Origin: a bacterium
GTDB taxonomy: Bacteria; JAJVIF01
DNA: 64,000 nucleotides
Direction: 5' to 3'
Assembly (NCBI GenBank): GCA_022072165.1
Contig: JAJVIF010000002.1
Span: 302,221 to 366,220 of the forward strand
Shown here piece by piece: positions 3,040 to 54,859 of this stretch. How positions within the stretch are numbered: the first letter of the stretch is position 1; each line of letters begins with the position of its first letter. The notes beneath the pieces were generated by a model. It was given only the letters and a program-made list of their open reading frames with translations, had not been told where the DNA came from and ran no database searches. A program made the position numbers and the translations under genes.

Positions 3040-3818
3040 GCGCGACTCCCCTGAAGCCCCCCGCAAAGTCATCGCCGGTGCAGTTGCCGGGGGGATTGGT
3101 CCTCCCGCCGCTGCCGGACTCTGAAGAAACCACCGGGCTGCTGGCTTCATCTCCTTCGGTGGCGTCAGTCGCCCCCCGATCCGGGCTGCCGGTGGGCTGG
3201 GTCCTGCTCCTGAGTCTGCTGGCGGGTGGTACCGCAGGTGGTGGTGTGGTCTGGTGGTCCAGCCAACAGTCCTCGCCGGTCCTGGAGAACGCCGAAGCCC
3301 GACTGACCCTGCTGGAAGGAACCCAGCGCGACCTGGAAGCACAGCTCCGCTCCTTGCGGGGACAGCAACTCGAACTGGAGCGGCAATTGCAGGAAACCCG
3401 GCAGGTCGTGGCGACTATCACGCTGGAAGCCTCCAAAGAACTGAAGTCAGCGCAACAGTCCGCCACAAAAGCCGAACGCGAGCTGCAGCAACTCAAGCTG
3501 GAGACCGCTCTGAATCGACTCAACCAGGAGTTCGCGGCGGAAGGGGTCCCCATCGGTGTCACCGGCGGGTCACTGGCCGGCAGGCAGGTGAGTCTCACCA
3601 TTGCGTACTGGGGCTTCCGGGTCACGGAGCGGGAAGCCCTCACCTACCTCCAGCGCTTTGCTCTCCCGTTGCGCACTGCATTCCCGGACTCCCGGTTTCC
3701 GGCGGACTTCACGCTGACCTTCCGGGGGGCGCAGAACGGACGCGAGTCGGTCTATCGCCAGGGACTCTGGAATCGCCAGGAGTCGCCTGCGACGGGAGGG
3801 ACCGAGCAATGGAACTGA
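3036..3818 (+). CDS. Membrane-anchored coiled-coil protein inside the liv operon, unknown
   Basis: A 260-residue protein starting at an ATG that overlaps the livH stop (ATGA at 3036-3039) and ending inside the livM start, so it is translationally coupled on both sides. Layout: a Pro/Ser-rich cytoplasmic-type N-terminus (1-50), one transmembrane segment (about 52-72, LLLSLLAGG), a Gln/Glu/Leu heptad-rich coiled coil (about 80-170), and a C-terminal globular part of about 90 residues with TIAYWGF and LTFRGA strands. I do not recognise the family, and standard Liv operons lack such a gene. Position and coupling suggest an accessory subunit of this transporter, perhaps meeting the LivH insertion outside the membrane; that role is inference. 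Confidence 0.8.
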   Translation: MSATPLKPPAKSSPVQLPGGLVLPPLPDSEETTGLLASSPSVASVAPRSGLPVGWVLLLSLLAGGTAGGGVVWWSSQQSSPVLENAEARLTLLEGTQRDLEAQLRSLRGQQLELERQLQETRQVVATITLEASKELKSAQQSATKAERELQQLKLETALNRLNQEFAAEGVPIGVTGGSLAGRQVSLTIAYWGFRVTEREALTYLQRFALPLRTAFPDSRFPADFTLTFRGAQNGRESVYRQGLWNRQESPATGGTEQWN

Positions 3819-5023
3819 GTCCCTATATCGAAGGCCTGATGATCCTCATGGGGATCAACATCATCGCGGCGGTCAGCTACAACCTGATCAACGGGTCGAC
3901 CGGTCAGTTCTCCCTCGGACATGCCGGCTTCATGGCGGTCGGCGGGTTCACGGCGGCGATTCTCACCCGCGACCACCAGTGGGGCCTGGTCCCGGCATTC
4001 CTGGTGGGGGGGATCTCGGCGGGCTTCATCGGGCTGCTGGTCGGCTGGCCGACGCTCCGCCTGAAGGGGGACTACCTCGCGATTGCGACCCTCGGGGTCG
4101 GCGAAATCATCCGGGTTGTCATTACCAATCTGAAGATCACTGGCGCGGCGCAGGGACTCGCTGGTCTCCCTTCCCTGAGGAAGCTGACCGGAGTCACGGC
4201 GATTCAGGAGCAGCATGGCGGGACCCTCCCCGTCTGGGCGCAATTGCTGCCGCTCGTGACGCTGTCGCTCTTCGTCATCGTGACCGTGGTCGTGATCTGG
4301 AATCTGCTCCACTCCGCGCGCGGACGCGCCATTGTGTCGGTTCGGGAAGATGAAATCGCCGCGGAAGCCATGGGAGTCAACACCACCTATCACAAGGTGC
4401 TGGCGTTTGTCATCGGCAGTTTCTTCGCCGGACTCGCCGGGGCCTGGCAGGTGCACAACACCGGAGTCGCTGCCGCAGAGGAGTTCAATCTCTTCCGGAC
4501 AGTCGAGCTGCTCATCTTCATTGTCTTCGGCGGGCTGGGCTCGACCTCCGGCGCCATCATCGCCGCCGCTGGCCTCACCTGGCTCTCAGAGCAGCTGAAG
4601 GACTGGACCAATTCCGAGATGGTGAAATCGGCCGCCGTCTGGGTCGCAGCGCAATGGGAGCTGGTCCGGCTGGGGGCGTATCGCACCCTGGGGGTCTGGA
4701 ACGTCAACAATCTGCCGGCGGGGTCCAACGGACTCCCGGTGGATCCCTATCTGCTGATCCCGGGTCCCCTCTGGAAGGCGATCTTCAGCCTCCTGCTGAT
4801 TGTCATCATGCTCGTGCGTCCGAAGGGGCTCCTGGGGACCTGGGAGTTGCCCTACCTCTTTTGGCGACCCTATCCCGCGCCGCCGGATGCGGGCGGCTGG
4901 CAGAATCTCGAAGAGCCCGCCCTCCATTCCACGCAGGACCCACCCATCACCGTCGACCTGCATCCGAGTAATGAAGAGTCCACCGACGCCCAGCGTCGGC
5001 ACGAAACGGGAGAACACCGCTGA
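3809..5023 (+). CDS. livM: Branched-chain amino acid ABC transporter permease, LivM family
   Basis: The second inner-membrane permease of the Liv system, 404 residues. The ATG at 3809 overlaps the previous gene by 10 nt; the frame is open further upstream, but only this start gives the typical NGSTGQFSLGHAGFMAVGG N-terminus. Other family marks are WPTLRLKGDYLAIATLGVGEI, the coupling helix SVREDEIAAEAMGV, FGGLGSTSGA, and VRPKGLLG near the end. Multiple TM helices fill the body. The C-terminus carries a hydrophilic Pro/Glu-rich tail of about 45 residues. It overlaps livG at TGATG (5021-5025). Confidence 0.93.
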   Translation: MELSPYIEGLMILMGINIIAAVSYNLINGSTGQFSLGHAGFMAVGGFTAAILTRDHQWGLVPAFLVGGISAGFIGLLVGWPTLRLKGDYLAIATLGVGEIIRVVITNLKITGAAQGLAGLPSLRKLTGVTAIQEQHGGTLPVWAQLLPLVTLSLFVIVTVVVIWNLLHSARGRAIVSVREDEIAAEAMGVNTTYHKVLAFVIGSFFAGLAGAWQVHNTGVAAAEEFNLFRTVELLIFIVFGGLGSTSGAIIAAAGLTWLSEQLKDWTNSEMVKSAAVWVAAQWELVRLGAYRTLGVWNVNNLPAGSNGLPVDPYLLIPGPLWKAIFSLLLIVIMLVRPKGLLGTWELPYLFWRPYPAPPDAGGWQNLEEPALHSTQDPPITVDLHPSNEESTDAQRRHETGEHR

Positions 5024-5849: not shown

Positions 5850-7910
5850 ATGGAGCCCCCCTCGCCCGAGATCAATCCCGACGACTACGCCCAGTTTGTC
5901 GAACATCTGCGGGCGTACTTCGAGGCGGTGCGCGCCTCCGGGGAAGATGGGGGGACCGCTGATGATGAGAATCCCGGGCTTCCGGATGCGATGGAAGCCG
6001 ACCTCTTCCACCTCTTCGCCACCGGGGTCGATCGTCCCCTGGATGCGACTTTCACCGCGTCACTCATGGATGCCCTGCAGGCCCTGACTCCTGGTGAGTC
6101 TCCCCCTGGGGCGATCCCCGGCTGGGCTGAGTTTGTGGCGCGACTCTTCCGCTATGAACAGGACTTTTTGCTGGAGCTGGAAGATGTCGCCCTGCCGGAG
6201 TCGAGCAAGACTCCGCTGCGACGGCAGATGATCGGTTTCTTTCGGAGTCTGGCGCGACAGCTGGCACAGCAGGGCGGGTCCGACCTGCCGGTCCAGGGCA
6301 TAGCGCTCCTTCCCGCTCCCCAGGACGCCCTCCTTGGGGCCATCAGTGACCCCTGCTGCATCGCAGACAGCGAAGGACGGATCCGCTACCTTAATCCGGC
6401 ACTCCGACTCCTCTGTCCCCCCGGAGTCGAGCCCCTCGGGACCCAGGCGGATCTCTGGTGTCGCTGGGATCCCCGAAGCGGTCCGGGCGATCCCATCCGC
6501 CCCGGGCTCCTGACACTCCTCCCGGAGCACCCGCTCCCGGTGCTGGTCCATCGGCTCCCCCTGGAGTCTGCGCAGACCCTCTGGCTCTTTCAGCGCACTG
6601 ATCAGCGTGGCACTGCTCCAGCGCAGGCGTCAGCTGCCACGTCGCCACCACCACTGCAGCCGCTGCAAGAGGAGAATCAGCGCTTGCGGGCGATCTATCG
6701 CGCCTGGCTGGCGCTGGGGATGGCGCAGACCGAAGACGACCTGTTGCCCACTTTCTTGCGTCGTCTCAACGATGTGGTCCCCTGGGGAGTCGCCCATGTC
6801 CTGTTGCTCGATCCGCAGATCGCGACCCTCTGGACCAGTCTGGCTGCGAGCGAGTTGCCGCACTGGCCCGGCCTGGAGAGTCGGCTGCTGGAACAGCACG
6901 AACTTTTCGCCCATCAGCCCGGACCGGGTGCGCCAGTTCGCTGGCGTCCCCTCGGACTCGCAGGGGCCCTCGCCCCTCCCGCTGCCATGCCGCCGGCAGA
7001 AACCCTGACCCTCCCCCTGGTGGCGGGCGATCGGGTCTGGGGATTACTGTCGCTCTATCGCTCCGATGCACAGCCCTATTCCTCCACGGAAGTCCAGGCC
7101 ATTGCGATCCTGACGCATGGGCTCGCCGCCACCTGGCGACAACTCCTCACCAATCGCACCCTGCAGCGGACCCATGAGCATCTGGAGCGGGAGCTGCGCT
7201 TTGCGCGCCGCGTCCAGCGCAATTTCCTCCCCCAGCCACAACCTCATCCGGCCATTCAAATCGCCACCCGCTTTGTCCCGGCCTCGCATCTGTCGGGAGA
7301 CTTCTATCTCTTCGATCAGCCAACCGAGGGACCACACACGATCCTCATCGGCGATGTCGCGGGGCATGGCCTCCCCGCCGCATTGATGATGACGACCATG
7401 ATCGGCATCTTCACGGAACTCATCCCCCAGTGCCGGGCGCGGATCGATGAAATGCTTCCCCTGGCGAATCTCGCCTGCTGTCAGGTGCTGGAGGAAAACT
7501 ACTTCGTCACGGCGCAGACCCTGCAGCTGGATGCCCGGACCCGGACCTGGCGTCTGCTGAACGCCGGCCATCCACCTCCCCTGCTCTGGCGCGCCGCGAC
7601 CGGGACCTGTGAAGTCCTCGATGCGGGGGGCCTGCCGTTGGGGATGTTTCCCGATGCGCGCTATGCCCCCCAGGAGGGGGCGTGGGAACCGGGGGACCGG
7701 CTCCTCCTCTGCACCGATGGGTTGCTGGAAGCGCGGGATGGCAGCGGACGTCTCTTCGGTCGTGACCAACTCATAGCGCATCTGGTCGCCGGGAGTCGGC
7801 TCCCGATGGCCCTGCTCCTCGACAGCCTGCTGGAAGCGGCCCAGGCACATGCTGGCGGACAAACCCTGAGCGATGATGTCGCGCTGATTGGACTGGAGCT
7901 TCAGGCCTGA
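5850..7910 (+). CDS. PAS/GAF sensor with SpoIIE-type PP2C phosphatase domain (RsbU-like)
   Basis: A 686-residue soluble protein. About 1-140: helical, acidic, unassigned. About 155-250: PAS-like (DSEGRIRYLNPALRLL). About 280-430: GAF-like. About 450-686: SpoIIE/RsbU PP2C domain with RVQRNFLPQ, the metal-binding GDFY and GDVAGHGLPAAL, NAGHPPPLL, LPLGMFPD, LCTDGLLEARD and the final LSDDVALI Asp pair. Such enzymes dephosphorylate anti-sigma antagonist proteins (STAS/SpoIIAA type) to release sigma factors or feed other switches; no such partner is in the window. It has no TM segment, so it is a cytoplasmic sensor. The stop overlaps the convergent exonuclease gene by 10 nt. Confidence 0.88.
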   Translation: MEPPSPEINPDDYAQFVEHLRAYFEAVRASGEDGGTADDENPGLPDAMEADLFHLFATGVDRPLDATFTASLMDALQALTPGESPPGAIPGWAEFVARLFRYEQDFLLELEDVALPESSKTPLRRQMIGFFRSLARQLAQQGGSDLPVQGIALLPAPQDALLGAISDPCCIADSEGRIRYLNPALRLLCPPGVEPLGTQADLWCRWDPRSGPGDPIRPGLLTLLPEHPLPVLVHRLPLESAQTLWLFQRTDQRGTAPAQASAATSPPPLQPLQEENQRLRAIYRAWLALGMAQTEDDLLPTFLRRLNDVVPWGVAHVLLLDPQIATLWTSLAASELPHWPGLESRLLEQHELFAHQPGPGAPVRWRPLGLAGALAPPAAMPPAETLTLPLVAGDRVWGLLSLYRSDAQPYSSTEVQAIAILTHGLAATWRQLLTNRTLQRTHEHLERELRFARRVQRNFLPQPQPHPAIQIATRFVPASHLSGDFYLFDQPTEGPHTILIGDVAGHGLPAALMMTTMIGIFTELIPQCRARIDEMLPLANLACCQVLEENYFVTAQTLQLDARTRTWRLLNAGHPPPLLWRAATGTCEVLDAGGLPLGMFPDARYAPQEGAWEPGDRLLLCTDGLLEARDGSGRLFGRDQLIAHLVAGSRLPMALLLDSLLEAAQAHAGGQTLSDDVALIGLELQA

Positions 7911-11586: not shown

Positions 11587-12582
11587 TTAGAACTGGAACG
11601 TCGCCAGGGTCCGCCAGCCTTCTGTACTGTAATGGTAGTCGTCGGTTAACCGCTCAATTTTCGGTCCTTGCGGACCGATCGGATCCGGCACGAAGTTTTC
11701 ATTCAGGCCGATACCATCGATCCAGCGAGGGCGCCCGTCCGCCAGGATCACCCGCCAACGGATGTCCTGCGTTGAGTCGTTAGCCTCCAACAGCACCCCT
11801 CCTGGGCCAGGCCACGCCTGATGGGGGAGCGGCATCCCCTCCCCCCTCGGTACGCAGTCCACCATGGTCCAGAGTTCCTCAATCGTCTCAGGAAAGCGCC
11901 CCCGATCGGTCGAGAATTTAAAGAGGAGCTGGGAGTATGTTTCTGCAAGATGTTTTTGTCGAATGCGCAATGGGGTGTCTGGTGGACGTCGCGTCCCGGC
12001 GAGGAATTGCCGGGCCTGCTCGTAGCTCCGCACATAGAAGCCGACATTCACCACATCCACCGTGTGCTTGTCTACCGGCATCTGGCGGGAACCATGGATT
12101 TCAATCCGGAGTTGTTCCGGTGCAAAGTCGAGCCATACTCCTGGGGACTCCGGGGGCACCGAAGCGCTGGCCGTGTGCAGTGTCAGCGGTTGCCCTTGAC
12201 TGTTTGCCGGTGCCAGGAGCCAGAGCCCGGCGGCCTCCAGGGCTGCGGCATCCGGAGGCAACCCGCCTGTGAGTTTCAGATAGCTGCGAACACATTTGGT
12301 CAGAGAGTGCTGCACGAAACTGGCCTGCAGCCCAGTAATGTGCACCTGGTGATCGGCCATCCAGCCCTGGTAGTACCCGGTGCTGAACTCGTTTGCGCTG
12401 AATCGCGCAGTTGCAGGAACGGTAGCCGAGGGCCGTTGCTGGGGAGACGCCGGAGGAAGAAACTGGCGCTGCAGTGCTCCCAGCTGTGACAACCCGGACT
12501 GACTGCATCCGGGCGTTACGACTCCACCCAGTAACAGCAGGACCCCGATGATCCAACGCTGACTTTGCATGACGACTGACAT
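11587..12582 (-). CDS. Cassette A lipoprotein with pseudopilin-like GxxP motifs, unknown family
   Basis: 331 residues. The chosen ATG (12580-12582) has GGAGG eight nt upstream; an in-frame GTG at 12591 is an alternative. The N-terminus is a signal sequence (WIIGVLLLLGGVVTPGC) with a Cys in a lipobox-like setting, although TPGC is a weak match. Two motifs of the form aromatic/Leu-x-Y...G-x-(L/F)-P...E-x-L are seen: SYLKLTGGLPPDAAALEAAGL and FSTDRGRFPETIEEL, resembling the helix-to-loop part of type II pseudopilins. It lies 42 nt downstream of the Cys-rich gene and is probably co-transcribed. The lipoprotein at 36651 shares this layout. It ends convergent with the pentapeptide gene. Confidence 0.7.
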   Translation of the reverse strand: MSVVMQSQRWIIGVLLLLGGVVTPGCSQSGLSQLGALQRQFLPPASPQQRPSATVPATARFSANEFSTGYYQGWMADHQVHITGLQASFVQHSLTKCVRSYLKLTGGLPPDAAALEAAGLWLLAPANSQGQPLTLHTASASVPPESPGVWLDFAPEQLRIEIHGSRQMPVDKHTVDVVNVGFYVRSYEQARQFLAGTRRPPDTPLRIRQKHLAETYSQLLFKFSTDRGRFPETIEELWTMVDCVPRGEGMPLPHQAWPGPGGVLLEANDSTQDIRWRVILADGRPRWIDGIGLNENFVPDPIGPQGPKIERLTDDYHYSTEGWRTLATFQF

Positions 12583-12624
12583 CCTCTGCACCTCCGTCCA
12601 CTTCCCCTCGCGTTTGTACTCTGA

Positions 12625-13209
12625 TCAGACTTCCGTCGGACAGCAGTCCGACTCCGCACAGTTCAGACAGATCTCGGGTGGATACCCGGCTGCGGAGCAA
12701 GGCCCGGGAAATCCGGGGGGCACGAAGCAATTCTGGCCTTCCATCGGCGTCGGTGGACACAACTCATGTGATGAGCGCTCAGGGTCATTACTCCAAATCT
12801 CGAAATAGCTCAGATTGCCATAACAGAGATTGAATTTATCGCAGCCTACAGACGACCCAGTGATCTCATGGCGACCGCCTGCGGCATCGAAAAGCAGCGC
12901 CGGGATTGTTTCGCAGGCCTCTGCCCCTAACCATTCGCCACTCTCTTCTTCCCGATGGAAACAAGCCAGATCTGCCCACGGGCCGACGGTTTTCACCTGG
13001 TAATTGCAAACCATGAGCGTATGCGTAACCGGGTCCTCACAAACATAGGTAACAGGCTTGCTGCAATGAACAAATTCTTCCACGTAGTAGACGCAGCAGC
13101 CGAAATCCACGGGCTCTTCCGAATGCCCCACTTGGGGAGCTAAAAGCACCACCACCGCCAGGGCCAGCAACCCGGCTTTACGGACTAACGTGAAAGATCT
13201 GAAGCGCAT
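12625..13209 (-). CDS. Cassette A secreted cysteine-rich protein, unknown family
   Basis: 194 residues from the ATG at 13207-13209, with GAGGAGG nine nt upstream; a longer open frame to 13299 runs through the promoter and is rejected. A signal peptide (KAGLLALAVVVLLAPQVGHSEE) is followed by a mature part of about 165 residues carrying 16 Cys, including two CC pairs (GCC near the start, DCCPTEV at the end). The even number and export suggest a disulfide-knotted extracytoplasmic protein. No known fold is recognised. Its promoter contains a 17-nt CT repeat, so expression may be phase-variable. The lipoprotein gene follows by 42 nt. Its counterpart is at 37739-38152. Confidence 0.72.
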   Translation of the reverse strand: MRFRSFTLVRKAGLLALAVVVLLAPQVGHSEEPVDFGCCVYYVEEFVHCSKPVTYVCEDPVTHTLMVCNYQVKTVGPWADLACFHREEESGEWLGAEACETIPALLFDAAGGRHEITGSSVGCDKFNLCYGNLSYFEIWSNDPERSSHELCPPTPMEGQNCFVPPGFPGPCSAAGYPPEICLNCAESDCCPTEV

Positions 13210-13248: not shown

Positions 13249-13277
13249 ATTATAGAGAGAGAGAGAGAGAGAGTCAA
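13249..13277 (-). promoter_or_regulatory. Sigma70-like promoter of cassette A with CT-repeat spacer
   Basis: On the minus strand -35 is TTGACT (13277-13272) and -10 is a perfect TATAAT (13254-13249), exactly 17 nt apart. The whole spacer is the alternating sequence (CT)8C. The -10 box ends 39 nt before the ATG at 13209. Gain or loss of one CT unit would change the spacing to 19 or 15, far from optimum. Confidence 0.8.
13255..13271 (-). repeat. CT/GA dinucleotide microsatellite, 8.5 units
   Basis: Read on the + strand this is GAGAG... from 13255 to 13271, and the CT that ends the -35 box continues it. It is the only long dinucleotide run I noticed in the window. It forms the entire spacer of the cassette A promoter. 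Confidence 0.95.
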
Positions 13278-13307: not shown

Positions 13308-13331
13308 CATCCCCCGGTTGCCCGGGGGATG
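13308..13331 (-). terminator. Hairpin terminator between murC and cassette A
   Basis: CATCCCCCGG (13308-13317) and CCGGGGGATG (13322-13331) form a perfect 10-bp stem with a 4-nt loop, followed on the minus strand by TTTGTGT. It lies 30 nt before the -35 of cassette A, insulating it from murC. An equivalent hairpin is at 38249-38271. Confidence 0.65.
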
Positions 13332-36650: not shown

Positions 36651-37703
36651 TTATGGCAAGCGATGGTGACCAGTGGACTGAGACTGCGCCAGATTGGCGG
36701 GATCAGCGGGTCGTGGAGCATCGATGCGTGGCACGGTCTGCAAGGTACTCCAGTCCGCCCAGAATTCCACACCCCGCAGCCAGGAGTCGATGCTCTGCTG
36801 GACTCGCGGGTTCGTGGGATATCCCACCGGGAGTACCGAGGTGTTGCGACCATCTGCACTCTCATGTTTCAACAGCAGGCGCGGCTCGGTCGATGAGCCC
36901 TCAAGAAGCAGCCCAAAAGACTGTCCATCTCCTGAACGGAAAAAGGTCCGTTGTGGATATGCCGCTTCCAGCGCACCGACTGATTCGCGAATCAGCGCGA
37001 GTTCGTACATTTGGAACGCTTCCAGTGGAGTCACTGGATAGCTTCCAAGCTGCGCACGATAGGTAGAGATCACGAGACAGAGATTTGAGGCGTACATCCC
37101 GAGGCTGGGATCGACACCCCGGAAATCCTGCTGGCGCAAGCGTGCACCGGTTTCGGTCTCCCATGAAGGCGCAAAGAAGCTCGTAAAGGGCCGCAAAGGA
37201 GCCCCATCGAATGCCGTCGACTCGATCACCAGATCGAACGGCTGGAGAGTAGATCGCGGATCAAGCCACATCTGAGGGTACTGCGCCGTAGGTCCAGCTG
37301 CCCACAGCGGCCAGGGTACACCATCCGGCGTAAGGGGCCAGGCGACAGTCCCTGGTAGCAGATTTTCGACGCGCGAGGGAAGCTGTCCGTTAACGCCATA
37401 GTGCAGGTTAAGAGCATTGTTTAGCAGCGGCAGCATCAGAAGACGCTGCGCAATCGCGATACTGTGCACATCGCCCTGCTCCAGCCCGGAACGCAGATCA
37501 AAGGAACGTAACTGCGCCTCAGTCCAGTCAGCGCCAGGCTGGGTGGCGACTCTCGCGGATGCCGGAGGTGTCGGGTCCAAGGTTTCCAAGGGACGGGAAC
37601 TTTGTTCCCGGCCCCCCACCTGACAGCCATTGAGGACGACAACCGCCCACAGCAGAATGCCGCTCAGGCTAAGAACTGCGTACCGTTGAGTTGTAGCTAT
37701 CAT
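36651..37703 (-). CDS. Cassette B lipoprotein with pseudopilin-like GxxP motifs, unknown family
   Basis: 350 residues from ATG 37703 with GAGGAG seven nt upstream. The signal sequence ends in a good lipobox (VVVLNGC). As in cassette A there are two Y-x-x-x-x-G-x-(L/Y)-P...E-x motifs: LHYGVNGQLPSRVENLL and YRAQLGSYPVTPLEAF, separated by an extracytoplasmic stretch with MWLDPRSTLQPFDLVIES (compare VWLDFAPEQLRIEIHG in A). The two are likely distant paralogues. It lies 35 nt after the Cys-rich gene and is probably co-transcribed. The C-terminus is Pro/Gln-rich. Confidence 0.7.
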   Translation of the reverse strand: MIATTQRYAVLSLSGILLWAVVVLNGCQVGGREQSSRPLETLDPTPPASARVATQPGADWTEAQLRSFDLRSGLEQGDVHSIAIAQRLLMLPLLNNALNLHYGVNGQLPSRVENLLPGTVAWPLTPDGVPWPLWAAGPTAQYPQMWLDPRSTLQPFDLVIESTAFDGAPLRPFTSFFAPSWETETGARLRQQDFRGVDPSLGMYASNLCLVISTYRAQLGSYPVTPLEAFQMYELALIRESVGALEAAYPQRTFFRSGDGQSFGLLLEGSSTEPRLLLKHESADGRNTSVLPVGYPTNPRVQQSIDSWLRGVEFWADWSTLQTVPRIDAPRPADPANLAQSQSTGHHRLP

Positions 37704-37738
37704 CGTTCGCTCCTCGCGTTCCGTAAGACGGAAAAAGA

Positions 37739-38152
37739 TTAAGGACACTGTACTTCCCGTATGACCACTGTACCCGGACCCGAAAGTGGCGGGCAATCGT
37801 TCGTGCACCAGAAGTATCCTGGTTGTACGCAGGGATTGGAGGCTGTCGCTGTATAGCTCCCGGTGCATTCGATTCTTGACGCATACTGACCAGACTCCAC
37901 CAGTTCACAGGGCTCTTCGCACGGCTCCTCTGCTCCCAGCACATAAAGGTCATAACCCTGTTCTGTGCCGCCGGAAAAAGTAATAGTCACCGGAATCATC
38001 CCGACAATGAGGCAGTCACAGAAACACTGGACTTGCAGGCTTGTACAAGCGTTCAGGGAAGGGAGTGGGCAGTGACAGCAATCAGCATACGCTTGCCCTC
38101 CCACAAGGCTCCCTCCAATGGCGACGATCAGGGCCAGTTGCAGTCGTTTCAT
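37739..38152 (-). CDS. Cassette B secreted cysteine-rich protein, unknown family
   Basis: 137 residues from ATG 38152 with AAAAGG ahead; the longer open frame to 38227 runs into the promoter. A signal peptide (LQLALIVAIGGSLVGGQAYA) precedes a mature part of about 115 residues with 14 Cys, starting CCHC and including CFCDC. It differs in sequence from the cassette A protein but matches in export, even Cys count, promoter layout and the following lipoprotein gene. A disulfide-rich extracytoplasmic protein is likely; no known fold is recognised. Confidence 0.72.
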   Translation of the reverse strand: MKRLQLALIVAIGGSLVGGQAYADCCHCPLPSLNACTSLQVQCFCDCLIVGMIPVTITFSGGTEQGYDLYVLGAEEPCEEPCELVESGQYASRIECTGSYTATASNPCVQPGYFWCTNDCPPLSGPGTVVIREVQCP

Positions 38153-38191
38153 GTTTTGGACCTTTTCTCTTGCTCCGTGCCAACCCTGAGT

Positions 38192-38220
38192 ATTCTCTCT
38201 CCCTCTCGCGCGCCTGTCAA
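38192..38220 (-). promoter_or_regulatory. Promoter of cassette B
   Basis: On the minus strand a perfect -35 TTGACA (38220-38215) is 17 nt from GAGAAT (38197-38192), which matches TATAAT at 4 of 6 positions. The box ends 39 nt before the ATG, the same as in cassette A. The spacer is GC then GA-rich but not a clean repeat. An alternative -10, AATACT, would need a 20-nt spacer. Confidence 0.5.
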
Positions 38221-38248
38221 CCATCAAGATAGGAAAACATCTAAACAG

Positions 38249-38271
38249 ATGCCCCGGTGGTCCCGGGGCAT
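38249..38271 (-). terminator. Hairpin terminator between yacL and cassette B
   Basis: ATGCCCCGG (38249-38257) pairs with CCGGGGCAT (38263-38271) around a 5-nt loop, followed on the minus strand by a T-rich run (CTGTTTAGATGTTTTCC). It lies 37 nt after the yacL stop and 28 nt before the cassette B -35. Confidence 0.65.
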
Positions 38272-39370: not shown

Positions 39371-39588
39371 GTGTGAGGCCCTCCTCTGCGGCGATAATAG
39401 GGTATGACCGGCCGCCGCGGATAACCCGCCGCGCCTCTCCAGTATATCAGTCAAACCGATTCACCATGACCCCGCTGCTAGAATCATCGGTGCCCAGTCA
39501 CCTTCCAGACAACGGATTCCAAGGGCACGGCAGATTCTCCCAGATGGCACAACACGGCATCGGGTACGCGGTAAGCCGGAGGAGCAAA

Positions 39589-42500
39589 GTGACTGAACAT
39601 CTGGACCGGCTAAAAGATCTCCTCGCGGAACTCTTCCAATTCGATCATGCCGACCTGGACTTTGGCCTCTACCGCATCCTCAACGCCAAGCGGGAGGAAG
39701 TGACGCGCTTCCTCAACGAGACCCTGCTCGGACAAGTCGCCGATGCGTTCGCGAGCTACGAGTCGCAGGATCGCGCCGCGCTAGAGCACGAGCTAGAGGC
39801 GGCGCGGAAGCAAGCCGAAGAGCTGGGCGTTGATCCCGACACGACGCCACGCGTCAAGGAACTCCGCGCGAAGATGGCCGACGTGCCTGACCGTGCTGCG
39901 CTGGAGTCGGCGGTGTACTCGCACCTCTACACCTTCTTTCGGCGCTACTACCACGAGGGGGATTTCCTCACGCTGCGGCGCTACAAGGAAGGGGTCTATG
40001 CCATCCCCTACGCGGGCGAGGAAGTGAAGCTCCACTGGGCGAACCACGACCAGTACTACATCAAGACCAGCGAGCACTTCCGCGACTACTGCTTCACCGT
40101 GGCGGACGGACGGCGCGTCCATTTCAAGCTGGTCAGCGGCGATACCGAGCGCGACAATAACCGTGCGCAGAACGGCAAGGACCGGCGCTTTGTCTTTGTG
40201 GGACAGGGCGAGTCCGGCGACAGCGCGTTGGTCTTGCAGTTCGCGTACCGGCAACCCGACGGAAAGAAATCGAAGCAGGCGGAGCTGAATGCCGAGGCTG
40301 CCCAGCGCGTCCTGGCGCTTCCGGGCATTTCGGCATGGGTGGCTGAACTGACTGAACCACGCCCGACCGACAAGTCGCCGAGCCGCACGCTGCTGGAGAA
40401 GCACCTCGCTGAGTACACCGCGCGGAACACGTTTGACTACTTCATCCACAAGGACCTGGCAGGCTTCCTCAAGCGCGAGCTGGACTTCTTCATCAAAGCC
40501 GAGGTCATGCACCTCGATGACATCGAGCACGACACCGCGCCGCGTGTGGAACAGTACCTCGCGCAAATCAAGGTGCTGCGGGCGCTCGCGCACCAGATCA
40601 TCGCATTCCTCGCCCAGATCGAAGACTTCCAGAAGAAGCTCTGGCTGAAGAAGAAGTTTGTGGTGGACACGCAGTGGTGCGTGACGCTGGACCGGCTGCT
40701 GCGAATCGAGGACGCCGCCGAACGCGATTGGCTCCTCGCCGAGATCATCGCCAACGACGCGCAGCGCGAGGAGTGGGTCCGCCTGTTTGCCATCGACAAC
40801 CTGGCGGGCGATTTAACGACGCCCGGCTACGCCGCGCCGCTCACGGCGGATTTCCTCCGCTCCCATCCGACGCTGGTGGTCGATACGCGGCACTATGCCA
40901 TCGAGTTCCGTGACCGGCTGCTGGCGACGTTCGCGGACATTGACGCTGAGACGGACGGCGTACTGCTCCACAGCGAGAACTTCCAGGCGCTGCGATTGTT
41001 GCAGGCGCGGTACGAGGGTGCGTTAGCGTGCATCCACATCGATCCCCCTTACAACACACAGACCAGCGGGTTTCTGTACCGAAATGATTATCAGCACTCG
41101 AACTGGCTGGGAATGATGGGGGATCGGCTTCAACTTGGCTGGCAGTTACTAGCTCCAGAAGGAAACTTACTGTGCCATATTGATGAAAATGAGAACGAGC
41201 GCCTGCACCTCCTTTGTGACTACTTGGGACTGTCCAATGCGGGAACCGTTATCTGGGACAAGCGGAACCCCATGTTGGGGCGAGCTGGCATCGCTACCCA
41301 ACATGAGTATGTTCTCTGGCGCACACCGAATGACGACCCCGTGTACCTACGAAACGTGAACCAACGCATGATTTTGGAAAAGGCCGCTGAGATTATCCAG
41401 CAGTCGAACGGGGTTTCTGAGGAAGCTAGGCGAAAATTTGCATCATGGGTTGGCTCATGCCTCGATCTCTCTGGGGGCGAGAAAGCCTATCGGTTCCTTG
41501 AGCACGATGGTCGAGTCTACCGTGGCGTTGCGATGGGAGCGCCAGAGCCTCGTACTGACCCCAAGTTTCATGAGCCGCTAATCCATCCCATGACTGGACA
41601 GCCGTGCCCGGTTCCTCCAAACGGCTGGTCACGTACACCCCAGTCCTTACGGGAACTGCTTGCCCACGATGAACTCATGTTCGGCCCTGACCACACATCA
41701 CAACCGCAACGCAAGGTGTATCTAACTAAAGACTCCCAACGTCAGGTCCCTTCCTTAGTGCAAGAGGCAGGGAGCGGAAAAGCTGACCTCGACAAGCTGG
41801 GCCTGGACTTTCCTTACTGTCATCCAGTCGGTCTCTACATACACCTCATGGGAGCAGCCTGCCCAAAGAAAGCTGTTGCCTTAGACTACTTTGCTGGAAG
41901 CGGAACGAACGGCCACGCGGTTATTTCCCTGAATCGCGAAGACGGAGGGTCCCGTAAGTTTGTCTTGGTGGAGGTCGGAGAGCAGTTTCGCACTGTCCTC
42001 TTGGAGCGCATCAAGAAGGTGACCTACACGCCGGAATGGAAAGACGGTAAACCGAAACGTCTCCCCACGGCAGAGGAGATTGAACGCAGCCCCCACTTCA
42101 TCAAGGTCCTCCGCCTCGAATCCTACGAGGACACGCTCAATAACCTCGCGCTGCACCGTTCGCCCGCGCAACAAACGCTGCTCGACCGCAACGACGCGCT
42201 GGCCCACGAGTACAGGCTCCACTACCTCCTCGATGTCGAAACGCGCGACAGTGCGTCATTGCTCAACATCGCGCAATTCGCCACGCCCTTCGACTACCGG
42301 CTGGACATCGCCACGGACAGCGTAGGCGAAACAGTCCCGACCGTCGTGGATTTGGTGGAGACCTTCAACTACCTCCTGGGCCTGCGCGTCCAGACGATGC
42401 GGACGGTTGAAGGCGTCCGGGTCGTCACGGGCTCGACGCTGGACGGCCAACGGGTCTGCGTCCTGTGGCGCACAGTCGCGGAGGTCGATAACGCTAAGCT

Positions 42501-42665
42501 GCGAGGGTGGTTTACGCGTCATCTTCTTGACCGGGCTGATGACTTCGACCTGATCTACGTGAACGGGGACAACACTTTGGCCTCATTGCGGCTGCCCAAC
42601 TGCCAATGGACCGTGCAGCTCACAGAGGAGGCCTTCCACCGGCTAATGTTCGAGGGGGTAGAGTA

Positions 42666-42666
<1 letters not shown>
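39589..42666 (+). CDS. Type III-like adenine-specific DNA methyltransferase (Mod)
   Basis: 1025 residues from a GTG at 39589 with GGAGGAG four nt upstream; the frame is open from 39373, but the family N-terminus EHLDRLKDLLAELFQFDHADLDFGLYRIL begins here. A large helical N-terminal region (about 1-460) precedes a beta-class N6-adenine methyltransferase: motif IV DPPYN at 485-489, then the target-recognition region, then the SAM motif DYFAGSGTNG at 766-775. It would mark the host DNA against the helicase-nuclease encoded next, which overlaps by one base (TAATG). Codons between about 41085 and 42010 are visibly richer in A/T at third positions than the rest. Confidence 0.9.
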
Positions 42667-45863
<3,197 letters not shown>

Positions 45864-45929: not shown

Positions 45930-48467
<2,538 letters not shown>

Positions 48468-48479
<12 letters not shown>

Positions 48480-52502: not shown

Positions 52503-52600
52503 GTTGCGGGGGCTTCTCCGGCAACCGGACCCCGCCATCAGGGGTCCTATCCGGGTATCCTTAGCCGGTAACGCGGCGCCGTGTGCGCCAGGAGGCTACA

Positions 52601-54859
52601 GTGACCCTCGATACCCGTCAACTTCGCACCCTGATTGGACGCTTCCGGGCGCAACATGCCCTGGAAGTCGGGGCGCGTGGCCTCTTCTATGGCGGTCTGG
52701 GATCAGCAGTTGTCATTCTGGCTGACAAGATCCGGCCGTTTCCCACCTCCTGGGACCCGGGCTTTCTCGCACTGGGCGTTGGTGTCGGCCTCGGAGTGCT
52801 GGCGGGGGCCTGTGCGCTGCTGAAGCGCTATCAACTCGAGGATGCCGCCCGGGCGATTGACGCGCACTATGGGCTCCAGGAGTTGCTCGGGTCGGCGCAT
52901 GAACTCGCGCCGGTCGCCGCGGGCGAGTTCGAAGCGGCGGTCGCGACGGCGGCTGACCGGCTGGTGAAGTCGCAGAACTTCACCCGCGATTTCCGGCTTC
53001 GCCCACCCGCGTATACCCGTCAGGCGACCGCCAGCATCGCGGTGGCTGGTCTCCTCATTTTTGTGCCGCCGCTGCAAACCCTGAATCCGGCGAAACGGGC
53101 AGAACTCGCGGAACTCAAAGCCCGGGAAGCGGCGCTGCAGGAACTCGCCCGCGACCTGAAGGAAATCCGCAAAGACGATGCCGCCCTGGAGGAACTCGCC
53201 CGGGAGGTGGAGGACCTGGCGGTCCGCTCCCAGAAGCAGCGACTGACCAAAGAGGACTTCCTGCGCGAACTGGATGAGATTCAGAAAGAACTCGAATCCC
53301 GGATGGCGGACCTCGACAAAGAGGGGACCGCGAAAGCGCTGGAGTCGCTGAAGGAATCGATGTCGGATCTCGCGATCCCCGAGGTGGGTGAAGCGAAGGA
53401 CCTCGCGGCGCAGATGGATGCCCTCCAGAAGCGTCTGGAAAAGAAGGACCTGAAGTTCGATCAGCTCGACCAGCTGGAAAAGACCCTCAAAGCCCAGCAG
53501 GAAAATCTGAAAGACCACAAAGAACTCAACAGCCTGAACAAAGAGCTGGGGCGTATGCGCGAGGAAGCGCTGAAGCAGCAGCAGGAGAAGCTGGGCGGCG
53601 AGGTGAATCGCCTGCTGGATGAGATGTCCAAAGAGGCGAAAGAGGGCGCGCAGAAGACCCCCGAGCAGCTCAAACAGCAGTTACAGCAGCAGGTCCAGCA
53701 GATGCAGCAGGAGGCCCGACAGGGGCAGCTCGGGCAGGAAGACACCAACAGCCTGCAGCAGAAAATCGATCAGCAGCGCCAGTCGGACCCCGCATCCGCC
53801 ACCCGGATGCAGGAGCTCAACGACCGCCTCAACCAGGCCCTCAGCAAAGAACAGCAGCTGGGCAACGAGGTCCAGCAGCAGCAGTCCCAGAATCAGCAAC
53901 CGTCACAACAATCCCAGCAAGGCCAGCAGGGCGAACAGCAACAGGGGCAACAGTCCCAGCAGGGGCAGCAGGGCGAACAGGCCCAGCAAGGCCAGCAGTC
54001 CCAACAGGGACAGCAGGGGGAGTCAGGACAACAGCCGGGCCAGCAGTCCCAGCAGGGACAGAGCGCAGGCCAGCAGCAGTCCGGCCAGGGGCAACAAGGA
54101 CAGTCCGGCCAGTCACCCAGCCAGCAGCCCTCCCAGAATCCTGATGGCCAGGGGCAGGGACAGGGCCAGATGACGGTCGAGCAGTGGATGCAGCAACAGC
54201 AGCAGTCGCAGCAGGGGAACTCCCAGGGTCAGGGCGGTCAGCCGATGGAAGGCTCTCCGCAACTCGGACCCCAGGGTCAGAATCCCGGTCAGGGGCAGGG
54301 TCAGGGGAGTGGCCAGGGGTCCCAGGGCTTCTCCTCCATGTCCCCGGAAGAAATGCGCAACTGGGCTGACATGCTCAAGGAGTACCAGGGTCTCTCTTCC
54401 ACCAATCGCAAGCTGGGACAGACTCGTAGCGGCGGATCTGGCAAGCCCGGTGAGGGGAGCGGCGCCGGAGGCGGCAACGGCTGGGGCCTCGGGCATAACC
54501 CCGGAGGGACTCCCTCGAATCAGGGGAGCGGGCAAGCCCAGAACCAGCCGGGGATGAAAACACAACAGAGCAAGCTGACCCTGGACCAGATGCTCGACTT
54601 CCAGGCGCTCTACGATCCCCATCTCATAGATGCCCGGATCCGCGACGAGCACAAAGTCCAGGGCTACCTCCAGGAAGGCGAGTCCGGCGGCTTTACGATG
54701 GTTAAAGCCCCCAACGTGGAAGAGGGGGATGCGCTGACGCCGTACTTTTCCGTGGACCCCAAGACCGCCGATGCGGAGGTCCAGGCCCTGGAAAATCAGG
54801 AAATCCCGGCGAATCTCAAGGACCTGGTGCGGCAGTACTTCGACAGCCTGAAGCAATAG
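52601..54859 (+). CDS. Large membrane coiled-coil protein with Gln-rich low-complexity region (DUF4175-like?)
   Basis: 752 residues from a GTG with AGGAGG five nt upstream (in-frame GTG at 52583 would overlap that site). Two TM helices at about 30-75 and a third at about 142-158 are followed by a long charged coiled coil (about 165-380), a Gln/Gly/Ser low-complexity block (about 420-600) built from QQGQQGEQ/QQSQQGQ units, a Gly-rich linker, and a conserved-looking last ~95 residues (LDQMLDFQALYDPHLIDARIRDEHKVQGYLQ). The overall plan resembles DUF4175-type membrane proteins, but I am not certain. The low-complexity part has prion-like composition. Function unknown. Confidence 0.8.
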   Translation: MTLDTRQLRTLIGRFRAQHALEVGARGLFYGGLGSAVVILADKIRPFPTSWDPGFLALGVGVGLGVLAGACALLKRYQLEDAARAIDAHYGLQELLGSAHELAPVAAGEFEAAVATAADRLVKSQNFTRDFRLRPPAYTRQATASIAVAGLLIFVPPLQTLNPAKRAELAELKAREAALQELARDLKEIRKDDAALEELAREVEDLAVRSQKQRLTKEDFLRELDEIQKELESRMADLDKEGTAKALESLKESMSDLAIPEVGEAKDLAAQMDALQKRLEKKDLKFDQLDQLEKTLKAQQENLKDHKELNSLNKELGRMREEALKQQQEKLGGEVNRLLDEMSKEAKEGAQKTPEQLKQQLQQQVQQMQQEARQGQLGQEDTNSLQQKIDQQRQSDPASATRMQELNDRLNQALSKEQQLGNEVQQQQSQNQQPSQQSQQGQQGEQQQGQQSQQGQQGEQAQQGQQSQQGQQGESGQQPGQQSQQGQSAGQQQSGQGQQGQSGQSPSQQPSQNPDGQGQGQGQMTVEQWMQQQQQSQQGNSQGQGGQPMEGSPQLGPQGQNPGQGQGQGSGQGSQGFSSMSPEEMRNWADMLKEYQGLSSTNRKLGQTRSGGSGKPGEGSGAGGGNGWGLGHNPGGTPSNQGSGQAQNQPGMKTQQSKLTLDQMLDFQALYDPHLIDARIRDEHKVQGYLQEGESGGFTMVKAPNVEEGDALTPYFSVDPKTADAEVQALENQEIPANLKDLVRQYFDSLKQ
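53870..54330 (+). repeat. Imperfect CAG/CAGGG-rich coding repeat
   Basis: DNA encoding the Gln/Gly/Ser block is a degenerate tandem repeat of CAGCAGGGNCAGCA-like units on the + strand. Codon variation between units argues for selection on the protein, not recent expansion. Confidence 0.8.

Follow-up and report, generated by a model that had tools for sequence, protein, structure and literature searches.

A probable genome-wide repertoire of repeat-driven, phase-variable two-gene operons represented by cassettes A and B of an uncultured bacterium

Cassettes A and B, two gene pairs on the minus strand of the 64-kb stretch of DNA analysed here (hereafter the window), very probably belong to a genome-wide repertoire of two-gene operons that would be phase-variable, driven by simple sequence repeats (SSRs), and that would encode secreted or surface products. 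Simple sequence repeats in promoter spacers and 5' leaders are enriched at these cassettes over the genome background, and a spacer or leader that consists of such a repeat points to phase variation. The original prediction, which had compared the two cassettes, was partly supported, and had missed the (CT)10 spacer of promoter A.

Re-reading of cassette B on the minus strand bore out the predicted layout, i.e., a hairpin (38271-38249), 28 nt, TTGACA, 17 nt, GAGAAT, 39 nt and the ATG at 38152, followed by two open reading frames (ORFs) separated by 35 nt. The hairpin, ATGCCCCGG-GACCA-CCGGGGCAT, is the terminator of the upstream yacL-like gene (38249-38271, minus strand) and lies outside the cassette proper. 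Promoter B (38192-38220, minus strand) has a 17-nt spacer formed by a degenerate (GC)/(GA) repeat, ggcgcgcgagagggaga, and its GAGAAT -10 box was also identified in L018b, L109 and L133, with spacers of 19, 15 and 17 nt, respectively (15, 17, 17 and 19 nt for the GAGAAT promoters, promoter B included). The first gene (37739-38152, minus strand) encodes a predicted secreted protein of 137 aa in which an AxA signal-peptide site is followed by DCC, with 14 Cys among the about 116 residues of the mature chain. The second gene (36651-37703, minus strand; ATG 37703, stop 36651) encodes a putative lipoprotein of 350 aa with the lipobox LNGC, assigned to the type-1 'B' subfamily and having homologous copies elsewhere in the genome. 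Two Y-x4-G-x-(L/Y)-P motifs had been attributed to this protein; the second (YRAQLGSYP) has the Y-x4-G form, whereas the first (YGVNGQLP) reads Y-x3-G-x-L-P. Since its repeat is degenerate and its spacer stands at the optimal 17 nt, cassette B is probably a fixed-ON member of the repertoire, and may thus be locked on. Adjoining yacL and cassette B, a divergent two-gene system like type III restriction-modification was observed at window positions 39373-45863 of the plus strand (Mod, 1097 aa; Res, 1085 aa). The mod genes of type III restriction-modification systems are often phase-variable; no strict SSR was found at this Mod/Res pair.

Cassette A spans positions 13277-11587, and its spacer of 17 nt and leader of exactly 39 nt match those of cassette B, as had been predicted. 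In promoter A (13249-13277, minus strand), TTGACT and TATAAT are separated by CT repeats, and a perfect (CT)10 microsatellite, recognised by sequence reading at 13254-13273, fills the spacer and is the only strong SSR in the window by the strict criterion. The ATG at 13209, preceded by GAGGAGG, opens the gene of a Cys-rich, predicted secreted protein of 194 aa (12625-13209, minus strand), with GCC behind the signal peptide and 16 Cys. Downstream, the lipoprotein gene of the type-1 'A' subfamily (11587-12591, minus strand) has its first start at 12591 and its likely start at the ATG at 12570. The terminator hairpin of the upstream murC gene (13308-13331, minus strand) lies outside the cassette proper. 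Elsewhere in the window, the principal region of tandem repeats is coding, and consists of long Q/G-rich repeats (53894-54319) within a membrane-anchored coiled-coil protein of 758 aa (plus-strand ORF 52583-54859).

Judged by their sequence profiles, lipoproteins A and B are homologous, and their likeness is not a coincidence, because disjoint A-type and B-type profiles aligned in hhalign with 97.8% probability (E 1.3e-12, 206 columns) while reversed controls reached 0.1%. A search of the window's own genome (G000; 3.26 Mb, four contigs) recovered further cassettes, and the dispersed family that had been suggested turned out to be larger than claimed, with about 20 further copies, most of them adjoining a Cys-rich ORF. 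Lipoprotein B as a query matched five other places in the genome, lipoprotein A two, and the profiles about 20. By iterated profile and pattern searches and from single stretches of genome, we counted about 23 type-1 lipoprotein genes, of which six have no Cys-rich ORF of their own and 17 are directly preceded by a Cys-rich secreted ORF (A, B, L014a, L016, L017a, L017b, L018a, L018b, L019, L041, L042, L043, L044a, L044b, L080b, L082, and L086). Among the latter, L086 and L017b are weaker assignments, which match the other profiles poorly and were made mainly from gene order and the xCC partner.

Comparison of the lipoproteins with Pfam, NCBIfam and PDB sequences yielded no relative at threshold, and among the cassette proteins one member gave an isolated weak match to MzaB in PADLOC (E 0.0036). 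Membership in pilin, immunity or defence families was considered and rejected, with no match at threshold. Type II/IV pseudopilins (GspG-like) presumably carry a similar motif, namely a helix with Y-x4-G-x-(Y/L)-P followed by a W/N-P..G turn; unlike them, the lipoproteins described here have a lipobox and no prepilin leader, and no T2SSG or pilin match was obtained in Pfam. An internal duplication of two Y-G-P modules was also rejected, since no match was obtained between the halves of the A-type and B-type profiles, and the 'two modules' therefore remain a remark on motifs.

The products had been described as fast-evolving, which is right as to the extent of divergence, with identities of 30-50% between paralogues and synonymous change near saturation. 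It does not hold as to selection, since dN/dS was below 1 in the paralogue pairs where dS could be estimated, denoting divergence under constraint, and positive selection on the whole gene was rejected. Nor does it hold throughout the tandem pairs L044 and L080, where nucleotide identity rises from about 37-41% at the 5' end to 95-96% at the 3' end; this mosaic suggests that the copies have recombined (3' homogenisation). In the L044 tandem cassette (5922-6845 and 3784-4896), the two copies hardly differ in their 3' parts, and the upstream copy, L044b, has lost its middle by an in-frame deletion, so that a Cys-rich N-terminus is fused to a lipoprotein body.

Regarding the Cys-rich partner, CC stands directly after the predicted signal-peptide site in 15/15 type-1 proteins analysed, which contain 13-18 Cys per 110-180 residues; the L019 protein starts with xCC as well. 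A CC...C-x3-C pattern was observed in nine of ten partners of A-type lipoproteins, whereas C-x3-C was found in 0/5 partners of B-type lipoproteins (Fisher p 0.002). The Cys-pattern subtype thus tracks the lipoprotein subtype, which indicates that the two genes evolve as a unit. In L019 (4517-5065), the Cys-rich ORF becomes Cys-poor midway, while another frame stays Cys-rich up to a stop just before the lipoprotein, which seems to be a frameshift or an assembly error. For the Cys-rich proteins as well, neither Pfam and NCBIfam nor PDB sequences gave a match at threshold.

In this context, the pairs could alternatively be secreted toxin/immunity pairs, in which the Cys-rich product would act as a toxin, either bacteriocin-like or used in predation, and the lipoprotein as its immunity or receptor-blocking partner, and phase variation might apply even then. 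The two-gene order, the small disulfide-rich secreted product, the joint segregation of subtypes and the many diverged copies would all be in keeping with such pairs, and analogous lipoproteins protect lantibiotic producers; moreover, lipoprotein A showed a match to Imm72 below the cut-off (E 0.024). However, matches to known toxin or immunity families remained sub-threshold, with none at curated thresholds, the orphan lipoproteins are few and do not stand in immunity arrays, and the in-frame fusion at L044 fits a shared assembly of the two products better. We therefore regard toxin/immunity pairs as an unlikely explanation.

Turning to the repeats on which the phase-variable repertoire would depend, most other cassettes have a simple sequence repeat either in the -35/-10 spacer or in the 5' leader, usually with a different unit. 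Because the units differ among cassettes, it is the presence and place of the repeat that are kept, and not its sequence. The spacer class comprises A, L016, L017a, L018b, L108, L109 and L133, with spacers standing at 15-21 nt, for instance (CT)10 at 17 nt in A, (AG)10 at 19 nt in L016, (TC)10 at 21 nt in L017a, and (AG)11 at 19 nt in L018b. Borderline spacer repeats occur in L019 (A8) and L079 ((TG)5), and that of B is decayed at 17 nt. The leader class, with tandem repeats of 8-17 bp between promoter and start codon, comprises L014a (12 bp x 6), L041 (10 bp x 3.8), L042 (17 bp x 4), L043 (8 bp x 4.9), L044 (9 bp x 3.7 in L044a), L082 (10 bp x 4.1), L086 (12 bp x 5.3), and L143. Copy number differs between paralogues, with six copies in L014a vs two in L014b, and 3.7 perfect copies in L044a vs two in L044b; these differences were observed between paralogues, one genome per species being compared. 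In L042, the 17-bp leader repeat (5873-5942, x4) holds AGGAG and ATG at ribosome-binding distance, a spacing at which translation could begin from each repeat unit, in a different frame each time.

Enrichment was assessed under a strict SSR definition across 270 kb of the genome, made up of the loci found by homology and some control stretches. Thirteen of the 15 strong SSRs lie within 200 bp upstream of 23 homology-found units, a target of 4.6 kb (1.7%; p about 1e-21), and an earlier count that included loci selected for their SSRs gave the same picture. Counted by unit, 13/23 have a strict SSR upstream, and it is absent in the other ten (B, L018a, L019, L080, several orphans, and L141). Over the whole genome, all six (GA)7.5 tracts directly follow TTGAC[A/T] ahead of such genes. 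Furthermore, TTGACN0-2(AG)6 occurs at five places here vs three across 114 other genomes, with no occurrence of the reversed control pattern.

A second operon type shares the layout of type 1 and is represented by six lipoproteins. The pair consists of a secreted protein or lipoprotein ORF with about 11 Cys and a larger, unrelated-looking lipoprotein, and is driven by promoters with two of the (GA)n tracts (L108 and L109) and a TTGACN0-2(AG)6 match (L133). Profile A7, built from these three loci, recovered three more copies in the genome, of which two have a strong repeat: in L142, (TG)10 stands directly before TAAGAT, and in L143, (CTGCATCCTC)4 stands after a TTGACA...GATAAT promoter. Since L142 and L143 were found by homology alone and yet bear repeats, they are an independent confirmation of the link between these operons and SSRs.

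Three other genomes of the class (G001, G002, and G003) were compared. G002 (MAG isolate AUK107, JAGGVT01), which represents a different family, encodes a dozen or more type-1 lipoproteins, several of them with Cys-rich partners, while G001 and G003 gave marginal matches only. The contig prefix of G002 is that of MAGs from the Auka vent (PMC9213671). Its promoter tracts include (GT)n before TATAAT (L089), G8 in the spacer (L116), T12 in the spacer (L122), and T12 after TTGACA (L090); many G002 members have no strict SSR.

The repeats might instead be inert, either as slippage-prone tracts of relaxed intergenic DNA or as fixed promoter or leader elements with no role in switching, and indeed cassette B and several other copies manage without a strict repeat. 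Nevertheless, within the 270 kb sampled SSRs hardly occur outside these promoters and leaders, and for (GA)n this holds genome-wide; the unit varies among cassettes while the position stays, the spacer tracts lie exactly between -35 and -10, and G002 places other repeat types at the same site. On these grounds, we consider inert repeats quite improbable.

Two features of A and B that had been taken as marks of the family are not general. Leaders measure 38-42 nt for many promoters and 50-170 nt for others, so that equal spacings are not a family signature, the key feature being the SSR in spacer or leader. The hairpin, thought to be a shared part of the cassettes, was found at only 6/25 upstream regions, A and B included, and is therefore the terminator of the preceding gene. 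That the likeness of A and B reflects coincidence or a mobile hairpin-promoter-ORF element, as their identical 17- and 39-nt spacings and the hairpin in both might suggest, can practically be dismissed, since the lipoproteins are homologous by profile, further cassettes exist, most of these lack a hairpin, the leaders vary from 38 to 170 nt, and, against a mobile element, reading of the listed neighbouring ORFs by eye revealed no transposase.

Under phase variation of a dispersed repertoire, each operon would supply a disulfide-rich protein that is exported by Sec and begins, once mature, with xCC, and then a lipoprotein encoded downstream; export and lipid anchoring are predicted from signal-sequence patterns. 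In the spacer class, slipped-strand mispairing in the population would shift the -35/-10 distance by whole repeat units, turning transcription up or down around the optimum of 17 nt, and the homopolymer or (GT)n tracts of G002 would be its equivalents. In the leader class, the repeat probably tunes mRNA stability or translation, the route being a guess. Single cells would then display a random subset of the secreted and surface proteins, most plausibly as an escape from recognition of the surface by phage, predator or host, which is the usual reason given for such repertoires (PMC11868660). An apparent MutS homologue is encoded at window positions 45930-48479 of the plus strand; mismatch repair is thus probably present and would lower the slippage rates of dinucleotide repeats, which counts against phase variation.

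Several known systems resemble this arrangement in part. In Mycoplasma mycoides SC, the surface protein Vmm is switched by insertion or deletion of dinucleotides in a repeat within the promoter spacer of vmm (PMC10502178). The promoter-spacer dinucleotide architecture is like that of A, L016, L017a, L018b, L108, and L109; however, no common sequence family was found, the operons described here add a Cys-rich secreted protein and are found in an uncultured bacterium, the nearest named relative of which originates from vent sediment. The vlp genes of M. hyorhinis are a multigene lipoprotein family with a poly-A tract in each vlp promoter (PMC10502178). Each gene having its own homopolymer promoter tract, they resemble the G002 members with T12 or G8 spacers. 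The vlp genes are clustered and have one tract type in common, whereas the copies described here are dispersed and vary in their repeat unit. Nor did comparison with Pfam, NCBIfam and PDB sequences link the lipoproteins, at threshold, to a described family such as Vlp or Vmm. In the SSR contingency loci of Neisseria and Haemophilus, genes of surface determinants are likewise under SSRs, in the promoter or in the transcribed region (PMC5953494, PMC2651432, PMC11868660); those sets of genes are mixed, whereas most of the strong SSRs observed here belong to one or two families of paralogous operons. In Helicobacter pylori, a repeat in the promoter region of sabA tunes expression in a rheostat-like manner (PMC4081817), but sabA is a single adhesin gene, in contrast to a dispersed operon family.

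The mechanism is thus already known from SSR contingency loci, while the operon families are new, lack annotation, and are unusually many in an uncultured lineage. On a wider reading, which we hold as possible but tentative, about 23 type-1 and six type-2 lipoprotein genes would belong to an SSR-switched, undescribed two-component surface system, made of an exported disulfide-rich protein and its dedicated lipoprotein, that extends across families of this barely sampled class, in which the repeat re-evolved with each cassette and the products formed a combinatorial coat against phage or predators in a possibly non-host-associated bacterium. The phase-variation literature that we found concerns almost entirely animal-dwelling bacteria, with immune escape as the usual reason, and a repertoire of such size in an uncultured lineage, with a MAG from vent sediment as its nearest named relative, would allow a test of whether pressure from phage or predation alone selects for it. 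Moreover, unannotated protein families are defined here, repeats between -35 and -10 offer a cheap search handle for more of them, and metagenomes give direct access to the repeat counts.

Outside the class, two similar arrangements were observed. In G019, a genome of another phylum-level lineage, TTGACC(AG)7 immediately precedes the gene of a secreted protein that contains the motif YYDRTGEMPEQF (L129, 1500-2271), and is perhaps a distant case of an SSR promoter joined to a Y-G-P protein. In the unrelated genome G016, (CT)14 lies inside a TTGACA...TATAAA promoter (L130, 1485-1512) upstream of a predicted exported protein, and looks like another phase-variable promoter.
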